Source: Candidatus Glomeribacter gigasporarum BEG34
Lineage (GTDB): Bacteria > Pseudomonadota > Gammaproteobacteria > Burkholderiales > Burkholderiaceae
Direction: 5' to 3'
DNA: 44,320 nucleotides
Assembly: GCF_000227585.1 (NCBI RefSeq)
Contig: NZ_CAFB01000045.1
Span: 1-44,320, forward strand
In this document: positions 12,490 to 40,669 of the stretch, in pieces
Layout: the number at the start of each line of letters is the position of its first letter
Position numbering within the stretch: position 1 is the first letter of the stretch
The notes under the pieces: generated by a model
Databases searched by the model: none
What the model saw: the letters and a program-made list of their open reading frames with translations, nothing else
What the model was told of the DNA's origin: nothing
Position numbers and translations under genes: made by a program

Positions 12490-12605
12490 AGAATAAGAGC
12501 GCTTAAAACATTTTTAAAGCGCGCTGACCATAATTTCAGTGTATTACCCTATTTCAGAAGGGTTTTGCTAATCGTATGATACGGGTCATTTCCCATCTTG
12601 AGTAT

Positions 12606-12751
12606 GTGATGAATGGTTCAGAATTTGACAGTGGGGCGGCCAATAGCGTGCATGATCTGCATGCGGCCTCCGGCTGGACCGGCGACAAGAAGAGCCTTGG
12701 CCGGAGATGGACACAAACGATAAATGCTTCGACATTACCTTAACCCAATGA
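12606..12751 (+). pseudogene. Fragments of a second copy of the metallopeptidase-like lipoprotein gene
   Basis: Bases 12606-12689 match 14330-14413 of the intact downstream gene almost exactly (they encode MNGS/EFDSGAANSVHDLH and following residues). The next stretch to the TGA at 12749-12751 matches that gene's last codons at about 15541-15599. So this is an upstream paralogue reduced by deletions of both its 5' part and its middle. It keeps the position it would have had before the small paired gene at 12759. It marks a tandem duplication of a two-gene cassette. Confidence 0.85.
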
Positions 12752-12758
12752 GATAGAC

Positions 12759-13256
12759 ATGAGGCGCGCTATGAAATGGAAACTGAAAGCAGCGGCACTG
12801 TGGATCGCCTGTATCAGCGGGTATACGCCGTTGACGGTGGCGACGCCTACGCATGCGCCGGTGGATGTGCACGCCCTCTCCGGCAACCATCTGAAGAAAG
12901 CGGGCACCACCGCGCTTGAACTGGAATTCAAGACGACGCGCGGCAAGCAGACGGTGGACGTGATGTACACCGTCGATGAAGGAGATAAAGGCTTGGCGCT
13001 GGAATCTTCGGACAAAACCCGGATTGTGACGCAACAGAACGGCGCCGCCACAGACACGGTCCGGCTGCGCGCGCTGCGTCCTGGGCGTTTCTACCTGAAC
13101 GTCTTTATGACAATGAACGATCAAAGCCACGTCGTATCGATTCCGGTTCAGATTGGTCCGGAGCGGATGACGCGGCGTTCATCGATGGGCGTTCAATCCG
13201 TCGATTCCAAAGGACAAGCGATAGAGATTCTGCCCGCGCAGGAAACCGCCCGCTAG
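12759..13256 (+). CDS. Small exported protein of unknown function, paralogue 1
   Basis: The product is 165 residues. A basic N-terminus and hydrophobic core (LKAAALWIACISGYTPLTV) followed by ATPTHA indicate a cleavable signal peptide. The rest alternates short polar and hydrophobic strands (ALELEFKTTRGKQTVDVMY, RLRALRPGRFYLNVFMTM, SHVVSIPVQIG), which suggests one beta-sandwich domain. It is about 80 percent identical by eye to the gene at 15607, with an identical C-terminal half of GVQSVDSKGQAIEILPAQET. I do not recognise a family. Each paralogue follows the end of a lipoprotein gene copy, so they probably act together outside the inner membrane. An ATG at 12771 is an alternative start. Confidence 0.8.
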   Translation: MRRAMKWKLKAAALWIACISGYTPLTVATPTHAPVDVHALSGNHLKKAGTTALELEFKTTRGKQTVDVMYTVDEGDKGLALESSDKTRIVTQQNGAATDTVRLRALRPGRFYLNVFMTMNDQSHVVSIPVQIGPERMTRRSSMGVQSVDSKGQAIEILPAQETAR

Positions 13257-13469
13257 CGCGCAGATCAAGTTTGAGCAAAGAGCGGTGAGATTCCGCGCGT
13301 GAGCGGGCATTCATCAGGGCGGATCATTTTTGTCATTTTCAAAATCTGGTCAAAAACTGTAGCGAAAGATCGTCCGTTTTTGGACAGGCGCTCAGGTATG
13401 CATCTGATTTTGGCAGGGGTTGCCTGATACGATGCGGAGCGCTTCATTCTACTCAGGAGGGTGCGCATT

Positions 13470-15599
13470 ATGTTAGCAAAATCATTGCGTCGTTGCCTGC
13501 GCGCAGGCTGGATTGCGCTGCTGCTGGTGGCGGTAGCGGGCTGCAGCGACAGCGATCTAGATGAAATTGGCCCGCAAGGCCCGAACGGTGAACAGGGCGA
13601 TCAGGGGCCTCATGGTCCGCAAGGCCCAGGAGATGGCGAAACGCCTCCGGGCGATGGAACGCCTCCGAGTGATGGGACGCCTCCAGGCAGTGGGACGCCT
13701 CCGGGCGGCGGAACGCCTCCAGGGGGCGGAACCCCTCCGGGCGGTGGGACGCCTCCAGGCAGTGGAACGCCTCCAGGGGGCGGAACCCCTCCAGGCAGTG
13801 GAACGCCTCCGGGCGGTGGGACGCCTCCAGGGGGCGGAACCCCTCCGGGCGGTGGAACGCCTCCAGGCGGTGGAACGCCTCCAGGCGGTGGAACCCCTCC
13901 AGGGGGCGGAACCCCTCCGGGTGGTGGAACCCCTCCAGGCGGTGGAACCCCTCCGCCCGAGAAAATCCCCGAGAAAGTCCAGCTCTCAGGCCAGATTACA
14001 TATGATCGGGTGCCGGCGGTGGAGTGGTGGCAGGATATAGGGGGGGGCAGGAGGCGGCTCCGTACCAAGCTCGACTACGATCAAACAAGCCGACAGCCGG
14101 TTCGCGGAATGCGGGTCGAAGCGATTGACGCGCGGAACGCGGCGCTGGCGCAGACAGTGACCGATGAAAGCGGCCGCTACACGCTGCAAGTGCCTTCGAT
14201 GACGCAAATGACGTTGCGCGTGTCCGCGCAATTGAAAGGCGATACGCAAGAGGGCGCACGCTGGGATTTTGTGGTGCGCAATAATGTATCAGACGAATAT
14301 GCCGCCGATCCGAAAACCGCGCCGATGTATGTGATGAATGGTTCAGGATTTGACAGCGGGGCGGCCAATAGCGTGCATGATCTGCATGCGGCCTCCGGCT
14401 GGACCGGCGACAAGTATGATGGGACTAAGCGCGTGGCGCCGCCGTTTGCAATTCTGGATACGATTTATCTGGCCGTGCAGCGTATGCTGGAAATGGATAA
14501 GAACCGCAAATTCGATTCGTTCATTATTTACTGGAGTCCACAGAACAGAGTTGCAGACTGTAAGGAAGATGGACAGGTCTGTCACGCAAAGGGCGAGATG
14601 AGTGGGGCTCCTGCTTATGTCAGTCATGGCGGCCTTGGAGCAGGCATGTATCTGGTTGGCAAGGAAGATGTTGAGACGATGGAATACACGGAAGCGGTGC
14701 TTCTGCATGAATGGACGCACTATTTCGAGCATTTTGCATCGCGTTCGGATAGCATCGGCGGAGCGCATAGCTTTGGCAACAATCTAGATATGCGCGTTGC
14801 GTTTGGGGAAGGACTCGCAAACGCTTTATCCAGCATATTTAGGAACGATCCAAAGCATCTGAGGCCGATGGGTAAGCAACAGGCTGAGGGCCCTCCGGGT
14901 TATTCGGTAATAGAACCGCGTCCGACTGATCCGAAGACTTGGTATGGTGAATCGGCGGTGCACAATGCGCTTTACCGGTTTTATTCATCCATGCCTGAGA
15001 AGACGTGGCCCGGAATCTATCAAACGCTGGTGAGCAAGGAATACAGGGAGACGCCGGCATTTACCAGTCTGCATTCATTCGCGACTGAGTTACGCAAGCG
15101 ACTCGATGCAGCAGACCAGGCCAAGCTGGACACAATTCTGGACAGCGCCACTCAGGTCAAGGGCAGTATACTGGATGCGTATGGGACGAAACAAGCCCGG
15201 CCGACAGAGATCAAAGAAGCGGATAAAGACTGGGTTCTCCCCATTTATACCGAATTGAAGGTTGGTACCCCCCTTAACGTTTGCGCAACTAAAAAGTTGG
15301 ATAGCGACAAGAAAAGTTTGAATAAATTGTCCAACCACCGGTATCTGCGTTTCAATATTCCGACAGCCGGTCGTTATCGTTTAACGATTAAAAATGATAC
15401 GGACACAACAGTGCAACCCTCGATTCGGGCACTCAAACAAGGAAAGAGCATTTGGGGGCGAAGTGCGGCGAGACCGGGCCCTCTGCAGATCGATAGCGCT
15501 CTAGAAGTTGGAAACTATGTGGCTGCGGTAACGCAAGGGCGTTGGCCGGAGGAGGATACAAACGACAAATGCTTCAACATCACGCTGACTCAACAATGA
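13470..15599 (+). CDS. Putative zinc-metallopeptidase lipoprotein with Gly/Pro-rich repeat linker
   Basis: About 709 residues. ATG 13470 is chosen over a GTG at 13461 because AGGAGG (13455-13460) is well spaced. The lipobox VAVAGC puts the lipidated cysteine near residue 25. A short collagen-like run (GPQGPNGEQGDQGPHGPQGP) and 17 copies of a GGGTPP-type hexapeptide (residues about 61-162) follow. Next come a carboxypeptidase-regulatory-like domain (VRGMRVEAIDARNA to SGRYTLQVPS), then HEWTH at residues 413-417 with a GEGLAN motif whose Glu lies 34 residues on, as in gluzincin peptidases. The C-terminal domain (NHRYLRFNIPTAGRYRLTI) resembles pre-peptidase C-terminal domains. Peptidase activity is inferred from motifs only. 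A decayed paralogue lies upstream. Confidence 0.82.
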   Translation: MLAKSLRRCLRAGWIALLLVAVAGCSDSDLDEIGPQGPNGEQGDQGPHGPQGPGDGETPPGDGTPPSDGTPPGSGTPPGGGTPPGGGTPPGGGTPPGSGTPPGGGTPPGSGTPPGGGTPPGGGTPPGGGTPPGGGTPPGGGTPPGGGTPPGGGTPPGGGTPPPEKIPEKVQLSGQITYDRVPAVEWWQDIGGGRRRLRTKLDYDQTSRQPVRGMRVEAIDARNAALAQTVTDESGRYTLQVPSMTQMTLRVSAQLKGDTQEGARWDFVVRNNVSDEYAADPKTAPMYVMNGSGFDSGAANSVHDLHAASGWTGDKYDGTKRVAPPFAILDTIYLAVQRMLEMDKNRKFDSFIIYWSPQNRVADCKEDGQVCHAKGEMSGAPAYVSHGGLGAGMYLVGKEDVETMEYTEAVLLHEWTHYFEHFASRSDSIGGAHSFGNNLDMRVAFGEGLANALSSIFRNDPKHLRPMGKQQAEGPPGYSVIEPRPTDPKTWYGESAVHNALYRFYSSMPEKTWPGIYQTLVSKEYRETPAFTSLHSFATELRKRLDAADQAKLDTILDSATQVKGSILDAYGTKQARPTEIKEADKDWVLPIYTELKVGTPLNVCATKKLDSDKKSLNKLSNHRYLRFNIPTAGRYRLTIKNDTDTTVQPSIRALKQGKSIWGRSAARPGPLQIDSALEVGNYVAAVTQGRWPEEDTNDKCFNITLTQQ
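13650..13955 (+). repeat. Tandem 18-bp coding repeat, 17 units
   Basis: Seventeen in-frame 18-base units encode mainly GGGTPP, with GSG, GDG and SDG variants toward the start. The last eight protein units are all GGGTPP and differ only at synonymous sites, for example GGCGGTGGAACCCCTCCA against GGCGGTGGGACGCCTCCA. This gives a flexible linker that probably lifts the catalytic part away from the lipid anchor. Such arrays expand and contract by slippage, and an assembly may have misjudged the count. Confidence 0.92.
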
Positions 15600-15606
15600 G
15601 GTTGTT

Positions 15607-16110
15607 ATGAAAATGGTGATCAAATGGAAACCGAGCTGGATGATGGCGGTTCTGCTCGTTTGGATGAGCGGGCATGCGCCGCTCGCCGTTGCGACTTCAG
15701 CGCACGCGCCGGTGGATGTGCATGCCCTCTCCGGCAACCATCTGAAGAAAGCGGGCACAACCGCGCTTGAACTGGAATTCAAGACGACGCGCGGCAAGCA
15801 GACGTTGGACGTGATGTACACCGTCGATGAAGGAGATAAAGGCTTGGCGCTGGAATCTTCGGACAAGGTCAAGCTGCTCACGCAAGAGAACGGGATCGTG
15901 AAGGATACGGTCCAGCTGCGCGCGATTCGCCCAGGGCGCTTCTATTTGAATGTCTTTATAACGATGAACAATCAAAGCCATATCGTATCGATTCCGGTGC
16001 AAATTGGTCCGGAAATGCAGACGATGCAGCGTTCATCGATGGGTGTTCAGTCCGTCGATTCCAAAGGACAAGCGATAGAGATTCTGCCCGCGCAGGAAAC
16101 ATCCCGCTAG
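15607..16110 (+). CDS. Small exported protein of unknown function, paralogue 2
   Basis: The product is 167 residues starting MKMVIKWKPSWMMAVLLVWM, a clear signal peptide, cleaved near TSAHA. It shares the strand pattern of the protein at 12759 and long identical stretches (HALSGNHLKKAGTTALELEF). Differences concentrate in the middle (KVKLLTQENGIVKDTVQ here). It begins seven bases after the metallopeptidase lipoprotein stops, so the two are almost certainly cotranscribed. Possible roles are partner, substrate or inhibitor of that protein. None can be chosen from sequence. Confidence 0.82.
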   Translation: MKMVIKWKPSWMMAVLLVWMSGHAPLAVATSAHAPVDVHALSGNHLKKAGTTALELEFKTTRGKQTLDVMYTVDEGDKGLALESSDKVKLLTQENGIVKDTVQLRAIRPGRFYLNVFITMNNQSHIVSIPVQIGPEMQTMQRSSMGVQSVDSKGQAIEILPAQETSR

Positions 16111-16139
16111 CGCATGCATTTCGGGCGGCGGGTCATTCG

Positions 16140-18328: not shown

Positions 18329-18492
18329 TAGAGCATTTTTCAGTGAGCTTGCACAAGAAGCAAGCGCGAAGACAGTATGGAGATCGATGCGGGCGGAGCA
18401 GGTCTCCATCGCGTAGCGATGGAGGCGACCCCGCAGCGAGCTCATACGGCGAGCGCGAAGCGACACAGGGCAAGCCGCTGAAAAATGCTCTA
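18329..18492. repeat. Type A palindromic element, long form (164 bp)
   Basis: Ends TAGAGCATTTTTCAGTG and CGCTGAAAAATGCTCTA. The interior core (about 95 bases from CGCGAAGACAGTATGGAG) is identical in the three long copies and holds a second perfect hairpin, CTCCATCGC-GTA-GCGATGGAG. There is no coding capacity. The final CTA is the hslU stop codon on the minus strand; the other end lies just upstream of the ridA ribosome site. Confidence 0.92.
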
Positions 18493-19848: not shown

Positions 19849-20012
19849 TAGAGCATTTTTCAGTGAGATTGCACAAGGAGTCGAGCGCGAAGACAGTATG
19901 GAGATCGATGCGGGCGGAGCAGGTCTCCATCGCGTAGCGATGGAGGCGACCCCGCAGCGAGCTCATACGGCGAGCGCGAGCGATGCCGTGCAAACCGCTG
20001 AAAAATGCTCTA
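19849..20012. repeat. Type A palindromic element, long form (164 bp)
   Basis: Same length and core as the copies at 18329 and 21798, with differences only near the flanks (CAAGGAGTCGAGC; GCCGTGCAAACCGCTG). Its CTA end provides the hslV stop codon and the other end lies about 20 bases before the hslU start, so it occupies nearly the whole hslV-hslU gap. Confidence 0.92.
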
Positions 20013-20930: not shown

Positions 20931-21800
20931 ATGCGTCATTCTACTTTTTGGTCCCGCTGTACCCTGTATCTGCAATTGATTCGCTTTGATAAGCCCGTCG
21001 GTAGCCTGTTGCTGCTCTGGCCGACGCTCAGCGCGCTCTGGATTGCGTCGGATGGACGGCCGCCGCTGACGCTGCTGCTCATTTTCATCGCCGGAACAGT
21101 ATTGATGCGCTCGGCGGGTTGCGCCTTGAACGATTATGCCGACCGTCATTTTGACCGGCATGTGCAGCGCACCTGCGCGCGGCCTCTTGCGAGCGGAAAA
21201 CTGGCGCCGCGCCAGGCGCTGGTCTGCGCCGCGGCGCTGGCGTTGATCGCCTTTACGCTGCTTTTGCAACTGAATGCGCTCACGCGCGCCTTATCCTTCG
21301 CCGCGCTCTTCCTTGCGGTGAGCTATCCGTATACCAAGCGCTTCTTTGCGTTGCCGCAAGCGTATCTGGGCATCGCATTCGGCTTTGGCATCCCGATGGC
21401 ATTCGCCGCCGTTCAGAATCAGGTCCCGCTTGTAGCGTGGGCGATGCTCGCGGCAAATATGTACTGGACAATGGCGTATGACACCGAATATGCAATAGCG
21501 GATCGGGAAGACGATCTGAACATCGGCATTCGCACCTCGGCGATGACCTTTGGCGCTGATGATGTGCGCGCGGTGATGATTTCTTATGCATTATTTTTGA
21601 CGATCTATGCAGTGTTTGGCATTGCGCTCCATTTTTTATGGCCGTTCTGGCTGGGTTGGATCGGCGCCGGTGCATGCGCGATCTATCACTGCACGCTGAT
21701 TCGCGCCCGCGATGCGCGGCGATGTTTGGCTGCGTTCAGACACAATAGCTGGCTGGGGGCGATACTGTTTGGCGGCATTGCGGCGCAATTCTTGGTCTAG
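20931..21800 (+). CDS. ubiA: 4-hydroxybenzoate polyprenyltransferase UbiA
   Basis: The product is 289 residues with eight or nine hydrophobic segments. It opens [20 protein letters not shown] and carries the first Asp-rich site [12 protein letters not shown] and the second [16 protein letters not shown], the Mg-prenyl-diphosphate sites. It attaches the polyprenyl tail to 4-hydroxybenzoate in ubiquinone synthesis at the inner membrane. TATAAC near 20861 could be a minus-10 box. Its TAG stop at 21798-21800 is the tip of a long type A element. Together with the UbiH-like gene it shows a working ubiquinone pathway. Confidence 0.95.
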
Positions 21801-21961
21801 AGCATTTTTCAGTGAGATTGCTCAAGGAGCGAGCGCGAAGACAGTATGGAGATCGATGCGGGCGGAGCAGGTCTCCATCGCGTAGCGATGGAGGCGACCC
21901 CGCAGCGAGCTCATACGGCGAGCGCGAAGCGACACAGGGCAAGCCGCTGAAAAATGCTCTA
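21798..21961. repeat. Type A palindromic element, long form (164 bp)
   Basis: The cleanest long copy. The terminal arms pair apart from a T·G position (CAGTG against CGCTG) that would be a wobble pair in RNA, and the internal CTCCATCGC/GCGATGGAG hairpin is intact. The first TAG is the ubiA stop. It is followed after 37 bases by the site-2 protease start. Confidence 0.92.
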
Positions 21962-22673: not shown

Positions 22674-22775
22674 TAGAGCATTTTTCAGTGAGATTGCTAC
22701 TTTCGCGCCCCCGCAGCGATCCCGAACACACGGAATGGCGAAGTGACGCCGGGCAAGCCGCTGAAAAATGCTCTA
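22674..22775. repeat. Type A palindromic element, intermediate form (102 bp)
   Basis: Ends TAGAGCATTTTTCAGTG and CCGCTGAAAAATGCTCTA. The interior includes CGATCCCGAACACACGGAAT, which recurs in the copy inside bamB (CGATCCCGAATACCGAACAC) but not in the long copies, so it marks a subfamily. Located between the site-2 protease and rodZ. Confidence 0.9.
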
Positions 22776-22804: not shown

Positions 22805-23749
22805 ATGGATAAACAACTTCCAAGCCCAGAAGATCGGATAACAGTCAAGAGCGCTACAGCGGATAAGGCAATGCGTCTGTCTGAAGCCAAGCCGCGCCCG
22901 GAGCAGGAAGCGATGCGCTCGGTTGGCCGCAAACTTGCACAATTACGCGAGGCGCGGCGCTGGAAAATGGAAGATTTGTCTGAGCATCTTAAAGTTCCAG
23001 TCATCAGGCTGCGTGCGCTTGAAGCGGGTAATCTAGACAGTCTGCCCGAAATGGCTTTTGTGATCGGCATGGTGCGTAGTTACGCAAAAATGCTGGATGT
23101 CGATCCAGCGCCATTGGTAGGCGAACTGCGTCAAGCGCATGATTTGCCTGGAACACCTCTTGAGTTGCCCGGCTCAGACGGGGTCAAACTGCCTAGACGC
23201 CATCGTTCATGGACTGCCCGCTACGGCTTGTGGGGCGGAGCGGGCGCGTGTGTATTACTGCTGGTTGCATGGCTATTTCGTCAATATACTGAACGGGAAA
23301 TATATCCGCGCCCACCGGCTTCAAGGACGGTCACGGAGAGTCCTCAGAAAGAAATCAACGCGCCCGATACGCACTCTCCTGACACGTCCGCGCCAGCGCA
23401 TTTTCCAGTCGAGTCCGCCGCTTCTGCGGTCGACCGCCTCGACAGTCCGCATACGGCAGAGGCCCCGCCCGCTGAAAATCATGTTCAATCCGATATTCCG
23501 TCGGTCTTGCACTTTAAGGTTTCACAGAATACCTGGATTAGCGTGCGTCAAAGAGAAGACGGCCAGAGCGTGTACACAGGTTTGTTAAGCGCCGGGGAAG
23601 AACGCGATATACAGGCGCAGCCGCCGGTGGATGTCGTCGTCGGCAATGTGGCGGGACTGGAGTCTCTGGAGCTTGATGGCGAGCCGGTTGAGCCATCGAA
23701 GTATAAAGGGAGGCAGGGTAGTCATGTGGCCCGCTTCAGCCTGCCTTAG
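22805..23749 (+). CDS. rodZ: Cytoskeleton protein RodZ-like (HTH, single membrane span, DUF4115)
   Basis: The product is 314 residues. An N-terminal helix-turn-helix (VGRKLAQLREARRWKMEDLS to IRLRALEAGNLDSLPE) contacts MreB in the family. A membrane span lies at about residues 140-160, a Pro/Ser-rich periplasmic linker at 165-230, and a C-terminal DUF4115 domain includes NTWISVRQREDG and GNVAGLESLELDGEPVEPS. It helps keep rod shape. Its place before ispG-hisS is conserved. The TAG stop is the tip of a type A element. Confidence 0.9.
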   Translation: MDKQLPSPEDRITVKSATADKAMRLSEAKPRPEQEAMRSVGRKLAQLREARRWKMEDLSEHLKVPVIRLRALEAGNLDSLPEMAFVIGMVRSYAKMLDVDPAPLVGELRQAHDLPGTPLELPGSDGVKLPRRHRSWTARYGLWGGAGACVLLLVAWLFRQYTEREIYPRPPASRTVTESPQKEINAPDTHSPDTSAPAHFPVESAASAVDRLDSPHTAEAPPAENHVQSDIPSVLHFKVSQNTWISVRQREDGQSVYTGLLSAGEERDIQAQPPVDVVVGNVAGLESLELDGEPVEPSKYKGRQGSHVARFSLP

Positions 23750-23821
23750 AGCATTTTTCAGTGATTTTCCCTATGTCGCTTCGCGCTCGCTCCTCGGGTA
23801 AATCGACTGAAAAATGCTCTA
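23747..23821. repeat. Type A palindromic element, short form (75 bp)
   Basis: TAGAGCATTTTTCAGTGATT at the left, with ACTGAAAAATGCTCTA at the right. The interior TCCCTATGTCGCTTCGCGCTC matches the short copy at 2278. It starts on the rodZ stop codon and runs directly into a type B remnant. Confidence 0.9.
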
Positions 23822-26618: not shown

Positions 26619-27268
26619 TGAACCCATACACGCAATACCTTCCGGAGCGCCTGGCCGTCTGGCGGGCGCGTTGGGGCAAGCGGGCGCTCTGTGCTCTGGC
26701 GGCGGCGCTGATTGTCGCGGTGGCTATTTTTGGCTGGAAATACTGGCAACAACGCCAAACGGCGCGCGCCGCTGTGTTATACGAGCAATTGCAGCAGACG
26801 ATCTCGTCCGAACCCGCCTCTTCTGTAGACAAGAAGGAGACGCGCATCGCGCGCATCGCAACGGAACTTGAAAACCGATTTGGTCGCACGCCCTACGCGC
26901 AGATGGGCGCGCTGGCCGCCGCCAAAGCGCTGTATCAGGCGGCGAACGCGCAGGCCGCGAAGGTGCAATTGCAATGGGCGGCAGATGTTGCGATTGATGT
27001 GGAATACCGGCAAATTGCGCGCTTGCGGCTCTCGGCTTTATTGCTTGAGGAAAAAGCGTACGATGAGGCCCTGCGCGTATTGAATTCTGGGGCGTCTACG
27101 CCTGCGTTCGCCGCGCTGCGCGCGCAGCAGCGCGGCGATGCGCTCGCGGCGCAAGGTCAACGGGAACAGGCGCGCGCAGCGTATCGGGACGCGCTGCAAT
27201 CCCTGGACGCAAAAAATACCGCTGCGCGGCAGTGGGTGCAGTTAAAGCTGAATGCGCTGGGCGGTTAG
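26615..27268 (+). CDS. yfgM: YfgM-type TPR protein, BamB-linked periplasmic chaperone partner
   Basis: The product is 217 residues. A short cytoplasmic start, then one membrane span ([20 protein letters not shown], residues about 25-44), then TPR-like helices ([60 protein letters not shown]). The family assists outer-membrane or SecYEG-exported protein maturation and normally sits between hisS and bamB, as here. Preceded by GGAGG and overlapping hisS by four bases. Its TAG stop is shared with the tip of a type B element. Confidence 0.9.
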
Positions 27269-27412
27269 AACCTGTTCACGATCTTACTGCGCACCCGTGA
27301 GCCGGCGTCGGGCGGTGCTCGGAATCCTCACATATGATGTATATGCTCCGGTTCCTGCGCTCCGTCCTCCTTGGCTGACAGGCGCTCGTGACAGATCGTG
27401 AACAGGTTCTTA
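27266..27412. repeat. Type B inverted-repeat element, full copy (147 bp)
   Basis: Terminal repeats of about 20 bases, TTAGAACCTGTTCACGATCT and its complement, frame a non-coding interior with GTGAGCCGGCGTCGGGCGG and CTCCGGTTCCTGCGCTCCG. The interior is directional, unlike type A. The yfgM stop TAG lies in the left end. The ends and size suit a non-autonomous, MITE-like element mobilised by an unseen transposase, possibly of the IS5 group. Confidence 0.85.
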
Positions 27413-27435: not shown

Positions 27436-28658
27436 ATGCATTCCTTTATTCGTCTTAAACGCTTTGTCCTTTTTGCTGTTTCCGTAGGATGCGCAGCATT
27501 GCTCGCCGCCTGCGCGTCGCCGGATTCGCGCCGTGTTCCGGCTCCGCTGACGGAATTCAAGCCCTCACTTGAATTAAAGCAGGCGTGGAAGACGAATATT
27601 GGCAACGCAAAACCCTATTTATTCCGGCCGGCTGTGGTCGATAACGCCGTTTATGCGGCGGCCGCCAATGGCGCGGTCGTGAAAATGGATGCCAGTCGCG
27701 GCGCGGTCATCTGGCGCGCCCGACTGAATACAAAGCTATCCGCAGGCGTTGGCAGCGATGGCGCGCATACCGCGGTCGGCAGTGTGGACGGCCAGGTGTA
27801 TGTACTGGGGCGGGAGGGTCAATTGCTCTGGAAGAAAGGGCTGAAGGGCGAGATCATCACGCCGCCGCTGGTTGGGCGGAGCGTTGTCGTTGCGCGCACG
27901 AATGATGGACGTATCACCGCGTTCGATGCGCAAACGGGCGCGCGGAAATGGACCTTCTGGCATGAGGCGGCGCCGCTGAGTCTGCGAATCACGGAAGACA
28001 TGGTTTTCGCGGACGCCGGGCTTGTGCTGGCCGGTTTCCCGGATGGCGCGCTCGCTGCGATCCGTTTGGCGGACGGCGCTGCGCAGTGGCAAAGTCCTGT
28101 CTCCTACCCGCGCGGCGTGACCGACTCTGAACGCATGAACGATGTGGCCGGCGCGCCAGTGCGGATAAACCGTGAAATATGCGCGGTGACTTTTCAGGGC
28201 AGCATCAGTTGCATGGAGGTCCAGACTGGACAAGTCCTTTGGGAGCAGCCGTTATCCAGTTATGCAGGACTTGCGCAATATGAGTCCAAGCTGATCGCCG
28301 TCGATGAGCGCGCGGTGATTTCACTCTACGACACCGCCAGCCGCCAGCGGATCTGGAAAAACGCCCAACTGAAAAACCGGGCGTTGAGCGCGCCCGCGAT
28401 TGCGGGCCTAGAGCCTTTTTCAGCGATCCCGAATACCGAACACGCAGAAGCGACACCGGGCAAGCCGCTGAAAAATGCTCCAGCGGTGGTTGCCGGTGAT
28501 TACAAAGGCTTTGTGCACTTCTTATCGCTTCAAAATGGCGAACTGATTGCGCGCGCGAAAACCGATGGCAGCGCAATTACTGCCCCCCTGTATTTGCAGG
28601 CCGTACTTTGATTGTGCAGACGCAGAGGGGCGGGCTGTATGCATTTCGACCGTATTAG
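27436..28658 (+). CDS. bamB: Outer-membrane assembly lipoprotein BamB, with an in-frame repeat insertion and a 3' frameshift
   Basis: A lipobox LLAAC puts the anchor at Cys26, followed by an eight-bladed beta-propeller with PQQ-like blades (IWRARLNTKLSAGVGSDGAH, VGSVDGQVYVLGREGQLLWK, WEQPLSSYAGLAQYESKLIA). BamB helps the BAM complex insert beta-barrels. Residues 325-349 (from LEPFSAIP to LKNAP) come entirely from a type A repeat, lying between SAPAIAG and AVVAGDYKGFVHFLS. The uninterrupted frame ends at 28611. One extra C in the C6 run at 28583-28588 would restore PPVFAGRTLIVQTQRGG and LYAFRPY up to a TAG at 28656-28658, which another type A element supplies. Function is uncertain. Confidence 0.88.
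28408..28482 (+). repeat. Type A element inserted in frame within bamB
   Basis: CTAGAGCCTTTTTCAGCGATCCCG at the left and CCGCTGAAAAATGCTCCA at the right match the element apart from terminal substitutions (TAGAGCC, GCTCCA). They remove potential stop codons or arise from decay. The 75 bases equal 25 codons, so the host frame is kept. The interior resembles the copy at 22674. Confidence 0.88.
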
Positions 28659-28758
28659 AGCTTTTTCAGCGGCTTGCCCTGCGTCGCTTCGCGCTCGCCG
28701 TATTATTCATACTGTCTTCACGCTCGCTCCTTGGGCAATCTCGCTGAAAAAGCTCTAA
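28655..28758. repeat. Type A palindromic element, variant arms (104 bp)
   Basis: Both arms lack the same A/T position: TTAGAGCTTTTTCAGCG pairs perfectly with CGCTGAAAAAGCTCTAA. The interior includes CATACTGTCTTC and CGCTCGCTCCTTG, the reverse complement of the long-copy left flank. It provides the restored-frame bamB stop and ends two bases before the der start codon. Confidence 0.9.
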
Positions 28759-40382: not shown

Positions 40383-40517
40383 ACGATCTGCCACGAGCGC
40401 CCGTCAGACAGGGAAGGACGGAGCTCAGGAACCGGAGCATATTGGATATATGTGAGGATTCCTGTGACCTCCCGACACAGGCCACGGGCGCGCAGAAAGA
40501 TCGTGAACAGGTTCTAA
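40383..40517. repeat. Type B inverted-repeat element, left tip lost
   Basis: Starts at CTACGATCTGCC, lacking the outer AGAACCTGTTT of the left end, and finishes AAAGATCGTGAACAGGTTCT. The interior (GGAACCGGAGCATATTGGAT, GTGACCTCCCGACACAGG) is in the same orientation as the 30498 copy. Located between dctA and the MFS gene. Confidence 0.8.
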
Positions 40518-40669
40518 GAAAGAGCGTTCTTACTCAGCATTAAGCTCAAGCTCCTACCAGAGAATGGATTTTTTTGAAATGCTGCAGTCGCCTCTCACAG
40601 AGAGGTTATCAACATCTAACGTCCATTGCAAGAAAGCAAGAAATTGCGCTTGCCGGATTGGAGGGATTT

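Follow-up and report, generated by a model that had tools for sequence, protein, structure and literature searches.

A palindromic element family with in-frame copies in bamB and other genes of Candidatus Glomeribacter gigasporarum

The bamB locus and its insert

The window analysed here is a 44,320-nucleotide (nt) stretch of the Candidatus Glomeribacter gigasporarum BEG34 genome (contig NZ_CAFB01000045.1, positions 1 to 44,320). It contains a bamB open reading frame (ORF) interrupted, without loss of frame, by a short palindromic element, and a second copy of the same element lies between bamB and der. The features of this locus are as follows.

27436–28611, plus strand: bamB ORF with the in-frame element (translation; Pfam PQQ_2; 26 orthologues; Foldseek to solved BamB)
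28409–28410, unstranded: TA flanking the bamB element on the left (sequence; TA on both sides in 99/127 copies)
28411–28480, unstranded: the 70-nt palindrome within bamB, bounded by GAGCCTTTTTCAG and CTGAAAAATGCTC and read in the fwd2 frame (EPFSAIPNTEHAEATPGKPLKNAP) (sequence, blastn, DNA alignment)
28481–28482, unstranded: right flanking dinucleotide of the bamB element, CA; TA in most copies (sequence)
28583–28588, plus strand: run of six C, with one base fewer than BEG1 at or beside the run and the bamB frame lost after it (DNA and orthologue alignments)
28658–28755, unstranded: copy located between bamB and der, each tip lacking one base (GAGCTTTTTCAG / CTGAAAAAGCTC) (sequence; alignment)

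The N-terminal part of the encoded protein matches PQQ_2, the Pfam family of BamB, and a Foldseek search with its structural model ranks solved BamB chains first (E. coli BamB, E = 5.7e-29). Residues 325–349 (LEPFSAIPNTEHAEATPGKPLKNAP) are in frame and lie between SAPAIAG and AVVAGDYKGFVHFL. The initial annotation had read this segment as a palindromic repeat of 75 bases that adds 25 residues. The in-frame position stands, as do the substitutions that it noted in the element tips, but the element proper spans only 28411–28480, and the 75 nt comprise it together with both flanking dinucleotides and one extra base. Relative to the empty site in the same-genus genome 'Candidatus Glomeribacter gigasporarum' BEG1, bamB has a net increase of 72 nt (24 residues), because the tblastn matches to residues 76–325 and 350–387 sit on contiguous BEG1 DNA. 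BamB orthologues were matched in 26 of the 30 other genomes searched, and in the alignment none of the 26 has the insert, so that the extra residues are not found in the aligned proteins encoded without the palindrome. An AlphaFold model built on 27 sequences has a mean pLDDT of 89.9, whereas insert residues 328–344 fall below 50 and lie between strands 321–323 and 350–354. The 24 added residues are thus predicted to form a disordered loop of the propeller, in keeping with the surface loop that had been proposed as a check.

The bamB ORF ends in ...APLYLQAVL and lacks its last strand because, in comparison with BEG1, one base is absent at or next to the C6 run at 28583–28588. This one-base frameshift, downstream of the insert and near the gene end, may be an assembly error or real decay, and because of it AlaRS and CarA illustrate the phenomenon better than bamB does by itself. 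In the alignment, the border of the copy at 28658–28755 supplies a TAG in the frame used by BEG1 bamB; the same base has been lost from both tips of this copy, as if one arm had been copied from the other. Because the BEG1 site at the bamB insertion reads CTGG rather than YTAR (DNA alignment), an exact target duplication is not demonstrable in bamB.

Other repeats accompany the element in the window, in which no Rfam family was found. A second palindromic repeat, with tips AGAACCTGTTCACGATC / GATCGTGAACAGGTTCT, lies just upstream of bamB (27267–27411) and at 40394–40521, and nine of its tips occur in the sampled sequence of the BEG34 genome. An 18-base tandem repeat with 17 overlapping register copies occupies 13568–14008, within a 712-residue ORF (13461–15599). 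The adjoining stretches 12602–13259 and 14327–16113 contain repeats of 59–300 nt with 80–98% identity, which suggests a duplicated gene.

A family of palindromes in one genus

The bamB insert belongs to a family of palindromes of about 70–170 bp present in many copies, with 354 tips, 123 complete copies sampled and length classes from 67 to 166 nt. The tips were counted as matches to a 15-nt sequence with at most two mismatches in the BEG34 genome (1.73 Mb in 124 contigs); as a reversed control gave 2 and the RNA fold of the bamB copy has z = −4.29, chance is excluded. With the 75 nt from bamB as query, blastn against the same genome returned at least 42 matches, the query itself included, with up to 100% identity over 60 nt; 40 of 164 first-look candidates were scored for these matches. 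The element has inverted repeats of 13 nt at its ends and a length of 50–316 nt. Its target is YTAR, giving the context Y-TA...TA-R; 99 of 127 complete copies have TA at both borders, and the 72-nt gain for a 70-nt element in bamB fits such a short target duplication. Terminal inverted repeats and the lack of a transposase gene of its own are features of MITEs. Copies fall into length classes of 166/163/160, 100, 71, 70 and 67 nt, which, read from their consensus sequences, look like nested internal deletions. With the TA duplication, the classes of 166, 163, 160, 100, 70 and 67 nt add a multiple of three, whereas lengths of 71, 99 and 162 nt do not. The further copies in the window are listed below.

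18331–18490, unstranded: 160 nt; a minus-strand coding ORF ends at its border TAG (tip scan, flank count)
19851–20010, unstranded: 160 nt; a minus-strand coding ORF ends at its border TAG (tip scan, flank count)
21800–21959, unstranded: 160 nt; a plus-strand coding ORF ends at its border TAG (tip scan, flank count)
22676–22773, unstranded: 98-nt copy, core in common with the bamB copy (repeat comparison, tip scan)
23749–23819, unstranded: 71 nt; a plus-strand coding ORF ends at its border TAG (tip scan, flank count)

Across 41 genomes, the tip with at most one mismatch was found 279 times in BEG34, 38 times in BEG1 and once in each of two others, with none in the remaining 37. With a full-length copy as query, blastn gave hits in 2 of 150 genomes of the bacterial family, namely BEG34 and BEG1. 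A scan of an 84,980-species collection for the exact two-tip pattern returned a single record, from BEG1; BEG34's own records may be absent from that collection. In the searches made, therefore, the family appears restricted to this genus. A tblastn search with one insert peptide gave no match in plasmids and phages. We found no description of palindromic elements of Glomeribacter in the open literature searched, although an earlier notice is possible; papers containing both 'Glomeribacter' and 'palindromic' concern other subjects according to their titles and abstracts. BEG1 also contains another palindromic sequence (L139:2440–3218), with inverted pairs of 79 and 46 nt, which by eye is unlike the tips studied here.

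In-frame copies in unrelated genes

Among the 123 complete copies sampled, 27 lie in frame at genes, and 15 of these 27 have a Pfam match on both sides of the element. The sample consisted of stretches around copies among the matches listed, together with ten stretches picked mainly for peptide matches, and is therefore not random. The Pfam scan covered 33 candidate ORFs cut at the element, both halves for 25 of them and one half for 8. Matches were obtained on both sides in 15, on one side in 12 (three scanned on the matched half alone, and three being doubtful N-terminal cases) and on neither in 4 (three scanned on one half), and the remaining 2, from BEG1, matched on the scanned C side. The doubtful cases among the 27 (L041, L065 and L106) are so classed because the true start may fall after the element. 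A single Pfam profile runs through the junction in eight proteins (profile positions on either side of the element): YhdP (548|551), CobN (147|159), AlaRS (260|270), HemX (97|101), BamC (189|223), NadC (69|74), TpiA (29|34) and an epimerase (31|63). In MacB, MutS, GlmS, SucB, CarA and ValRS the element separates different domains of one protein, and BamB is the fifteenth case. Both halves exceed the Pfam cut-off in 13 of the 15; the N half of TpiA and the C half of BamB are below it.

One further ORF (L092) was discarded as an interrupted gene and not counted, its stop lying 20 residues past the element. A first codon-model classifier recovered 10 in-frame copies and was too insensitive; it was replaced by an anchored score (22 in BEG34) combined with Pfam, both the classifier and the score being home-made. 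In BEG1, a copy lengthens a D-Ala-D-Ala-ligase-like ORF by about 49 codons, in line with the initial annotation's statement that the element ends some genes and extends another; this gene name, like rpsB, erpA, transketolase and tsf below, was read from the sequence by eye. In an AlphaFold model of TpiA (3 sequences), the insert is a low-confidence loop between secondary-structure elements, so that in BamB and TpiA, the only two proteins modelled, the inserts are predicted to fit a surface loop, between strands or between a helix and a strand. The in-frame palindrome in bamB is thus confirmed, and the reading given in the initial annotation is supported and enlarged, bamB being one case of a genome-wide habit.

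We considered whether bamB is a dying gene in which the insert is one more scar rather than part of a working protein. Genome decay is frequent among endosymbionts, and the base missing at or next to the C6 run relative to BEG1, with the loss of the last strand, would fit such a course. However, what remains of the ORF reads through the insert without a stop, conserved residues persist on either side of it, losing a C from a homopolymer run is an error typical of sequencing, and inserts of the same kind occur in AlaRS, CarA, TpiA and others, open on both sides. We therefore regard decay of bamB as unlikely, while giving it more weight than the other rivals discussed below.

Empty sites in BEG1 and other genomes

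Comparison with other genomes shows empty sites for several of the insertions. In BEG1, the BamB and CarA sites are empty and the DNA on either side is contiguous. The AlaRS insert is absent from all 17 other genomes with a match, BEG1 included, and the CarA insert from all 5 with a match, in BEG1 on contiguous DNA. For TpiA, the matches in 15 other genomes start at residues 98–111, around the end of the insert, and the N-terminal piece (residues 8–53) is also matched in 7 of the 15; BEG1, a draft genome, gave no TpiA match. Conversely, Lpd of BEG1 has a copy near its N terminus that is absent from BEG34 Lpd, and copies have therefore been gained in both lineages.

Copies at stop codons

Many copies outside genes lie on a stop codon, which is then a TAG: 50 of the 61 coding flanks that run into non-genic copies end exactly at the border TAG. 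In the gaps between called genes, the element occupies 34 of 85 YTAR stop codons, whereas at the YTAR sites that are not stop codons it is present in 38 of 214 (odds ratio 3.1, P = 9e-5). Genes were called here with a codon model of our own making, applied to stretches that had been selected for their elements. In the window alone, the figures are 5 of 14 and 3 of 37 (P = 0.03). A first version of this count, in which uncalled genes had been taken as free space, was dropped in favour of this stricter one. Target choice and selection are both possible sources of the excess, and the counts do not separate them. For each of the three frame-breaking copies with a same-strand coding signal on both sides, the border TAG terminates the upstream ORF; two of these pairs read as erpA|transketolase and rpsB|tsf. 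The earlier observation that the element ends some genes thus holds, with ORFs that read as rpsB and erpA among those that stop at the border TAG of a copy.

Length, frame and selection

Copies within genes obey a length rule. A multiple of three is added by 79 of the 123 copies, and 27 of these 79 are at genes versus 0 of the 44 others (Fisher P = 1.4e-6; 7e-6 once the three doubtful cases are excluded, and 0.001 for the 15 two-sided ORFs only), a zero that is partly built in, because in-gene copies were recognised by their open frames. All 27 in-gene copies add a multiple of three, and no frame-breaking copy was found inside a gene. They also favour one reading: the hydrophilic fwd2 frame, one of four usable frames, is used by 17 of the 27, whereas open frames across 52 non-genic copies predict 20% (P = 1.6e-6). 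Leaving out L143, a copy from a stretch picked by a peptide match, together with the three doubtful cases gives 16 of 23; the labels of two 67-nt copies (L036 and L065) are ambiguous, and swapping them leaves fwd2 at 17. This bias points to selection on the protein. Openness of the consensus in several frames is weak as a designed feature, exceeding chance only slightly: of 3000 shuffles each, 67 (160 nt), 169 (166), 523 (163), 877 (67), 1925 (70) and 2271 (100) were at least as open as the consensus.

One form that selection on the protein could take is positive selection for a benefit of the peptides, which might for instance serve as new interaction surfaces; the strong bias to one of four usable frames and the persistence of inserts in housekeeping proteins would fit this. 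We consider this highly improbable: the target proteins are functionally unrelated, the compared sites are not common to BEG34 and BEG1, the modelled inserts (BamB and TpiA) look disordered, and the frame bias would also arise if selection removed peptides that are hydrophobic or rich in Cys. Least credible of all is that the palindrome is cut from the message or skipped by the ribosome and adds no peptide, for although the bamB copy folds as a stable hairpin (z = −4.29), neither the kept frame in 27 of 27 in-gene copies, with none of the 44 frame-breaking copies in a gene, nor the preference for one peptide frame (17 of 27) is expected under removal or skipping.

A probable non-autonomous element tolerated in frame

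Taken as a whole, the element and its family, the empty sites, the length rule and the frame bias are very probably best explained by a short, non-autonomous, MITE-like mobile palindrome that is tolerated in frame. Such an element would insert into a YTAR site and leave TA on both sides, as it would have done in bamB after the split from BEG1. Insertion within a gene would add a peptide instead of killing the gene because of the multiple-of-three lengths and several stop-free frames, and insertion on a TAR stop codon would leave a TAG there. Purifying selection would then spare copies that do no harm, whether they lie at stop codons, in intergenic DNA or in frame, and the in-frame survivors would mostly be those read in the frame that gives a hydrophilic peptide. 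The peptides are presumably translated, and they are probably close to neutral.

Movement would depend on a transposase acting in trans. The YTAR target and TA-type duplication resemble those of the IS5/IS427 group; the PF13340 matches in the two draft genomes (4 in all, 3 in BEG34 and 1 in BEG1) have no pair of element tips around them. PF13358 transposases gave no match in either draft, and the search with both profiles in these two genomes found no parent transposon with GAGCATTTTTCAG ends.

Relation to known palindromic elements

The Rickettsia palindromic elements (RPEs), which the initial annotation took as the only close precedent, are described as palindromes of about 100–150 bp that lie in frame in unrelated genes, tRNA synthetases included, of an intracellular bacterium (PMC10969869, PMC3767692), with inserts at the same loci across rickettsial orthologues (PMC3767692). 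The likeness extends beyond bamB, as the Glomeribacter palindromes are also in frame in several unrelated housekeeping genes, AlaRS and ValRS among them, with orthologues that lack the insert (BamB, AlaRS and CarA). There is, however, a second precedent: in-frame palindromes are described for Wolbachia as well as Rickettsia (PMC3733652), and the Wolbachia palindromic elements (WPE) are described as palindromic regions in frame in genes without premature stops (PMC4224334), as here. The Glomeribacter family belongs to another group of organisms and seems to have other tips, its exact two-tip pattern occurring in no record but that of BEG1, and it shows TA flanks, YTAR context and clean empty sites in BEG1. 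That pattern was not found in the Wolbachia records of the 84,980-species collection, and the WPE are likened to it by description rather than by sequence. Like bacterial MITEs such as MITECca01 of Cardinium, the element is short and repeated, with terminal inverted repeats and no transposase gene of its own; unlike MITECca01, which is mainly intergenic or located within mobile elements and rarely disrupts genes (PMC9769881), it has many copies in frame in genes. The element thus works like RPE and WPE in its behaviour, as an in-frame palindrome, and by its anatomy seems MITE-like with TA flanks.

Protein-coding palindromes have so far been reported mainly from Rickettsia and Wolbachia in the papers cited above, and the present elements form an apparently separate family, found in a betaproteobacterium that lives inside fungi. 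Because its copies carry target-site marks and have clean empty sites in BEG1, the route, age and cost of insertion become testable, and the copies in AlaRS, TpiA, CarA and GlmS are natural insertion experiments in enzymes. Annotators should be aware that such proteins may contain extra peptides. More tentatively, and at somewhat less than even odds in our judgement, the element may be gene-compatible by design, its YTAR target and G-initial ends giving TAG at stop codons and its multiple-of-three lengths and open frames adding a peptide in frame within genes. In that case a translation-tolerant mobile element would have evolved independently and spread through a gene-dense genome because it did no harm, and intracellular bacteria would tend to acquire protein-coding palindromes repeatedly, so that these would not be peculiar to the Rickettsiales.
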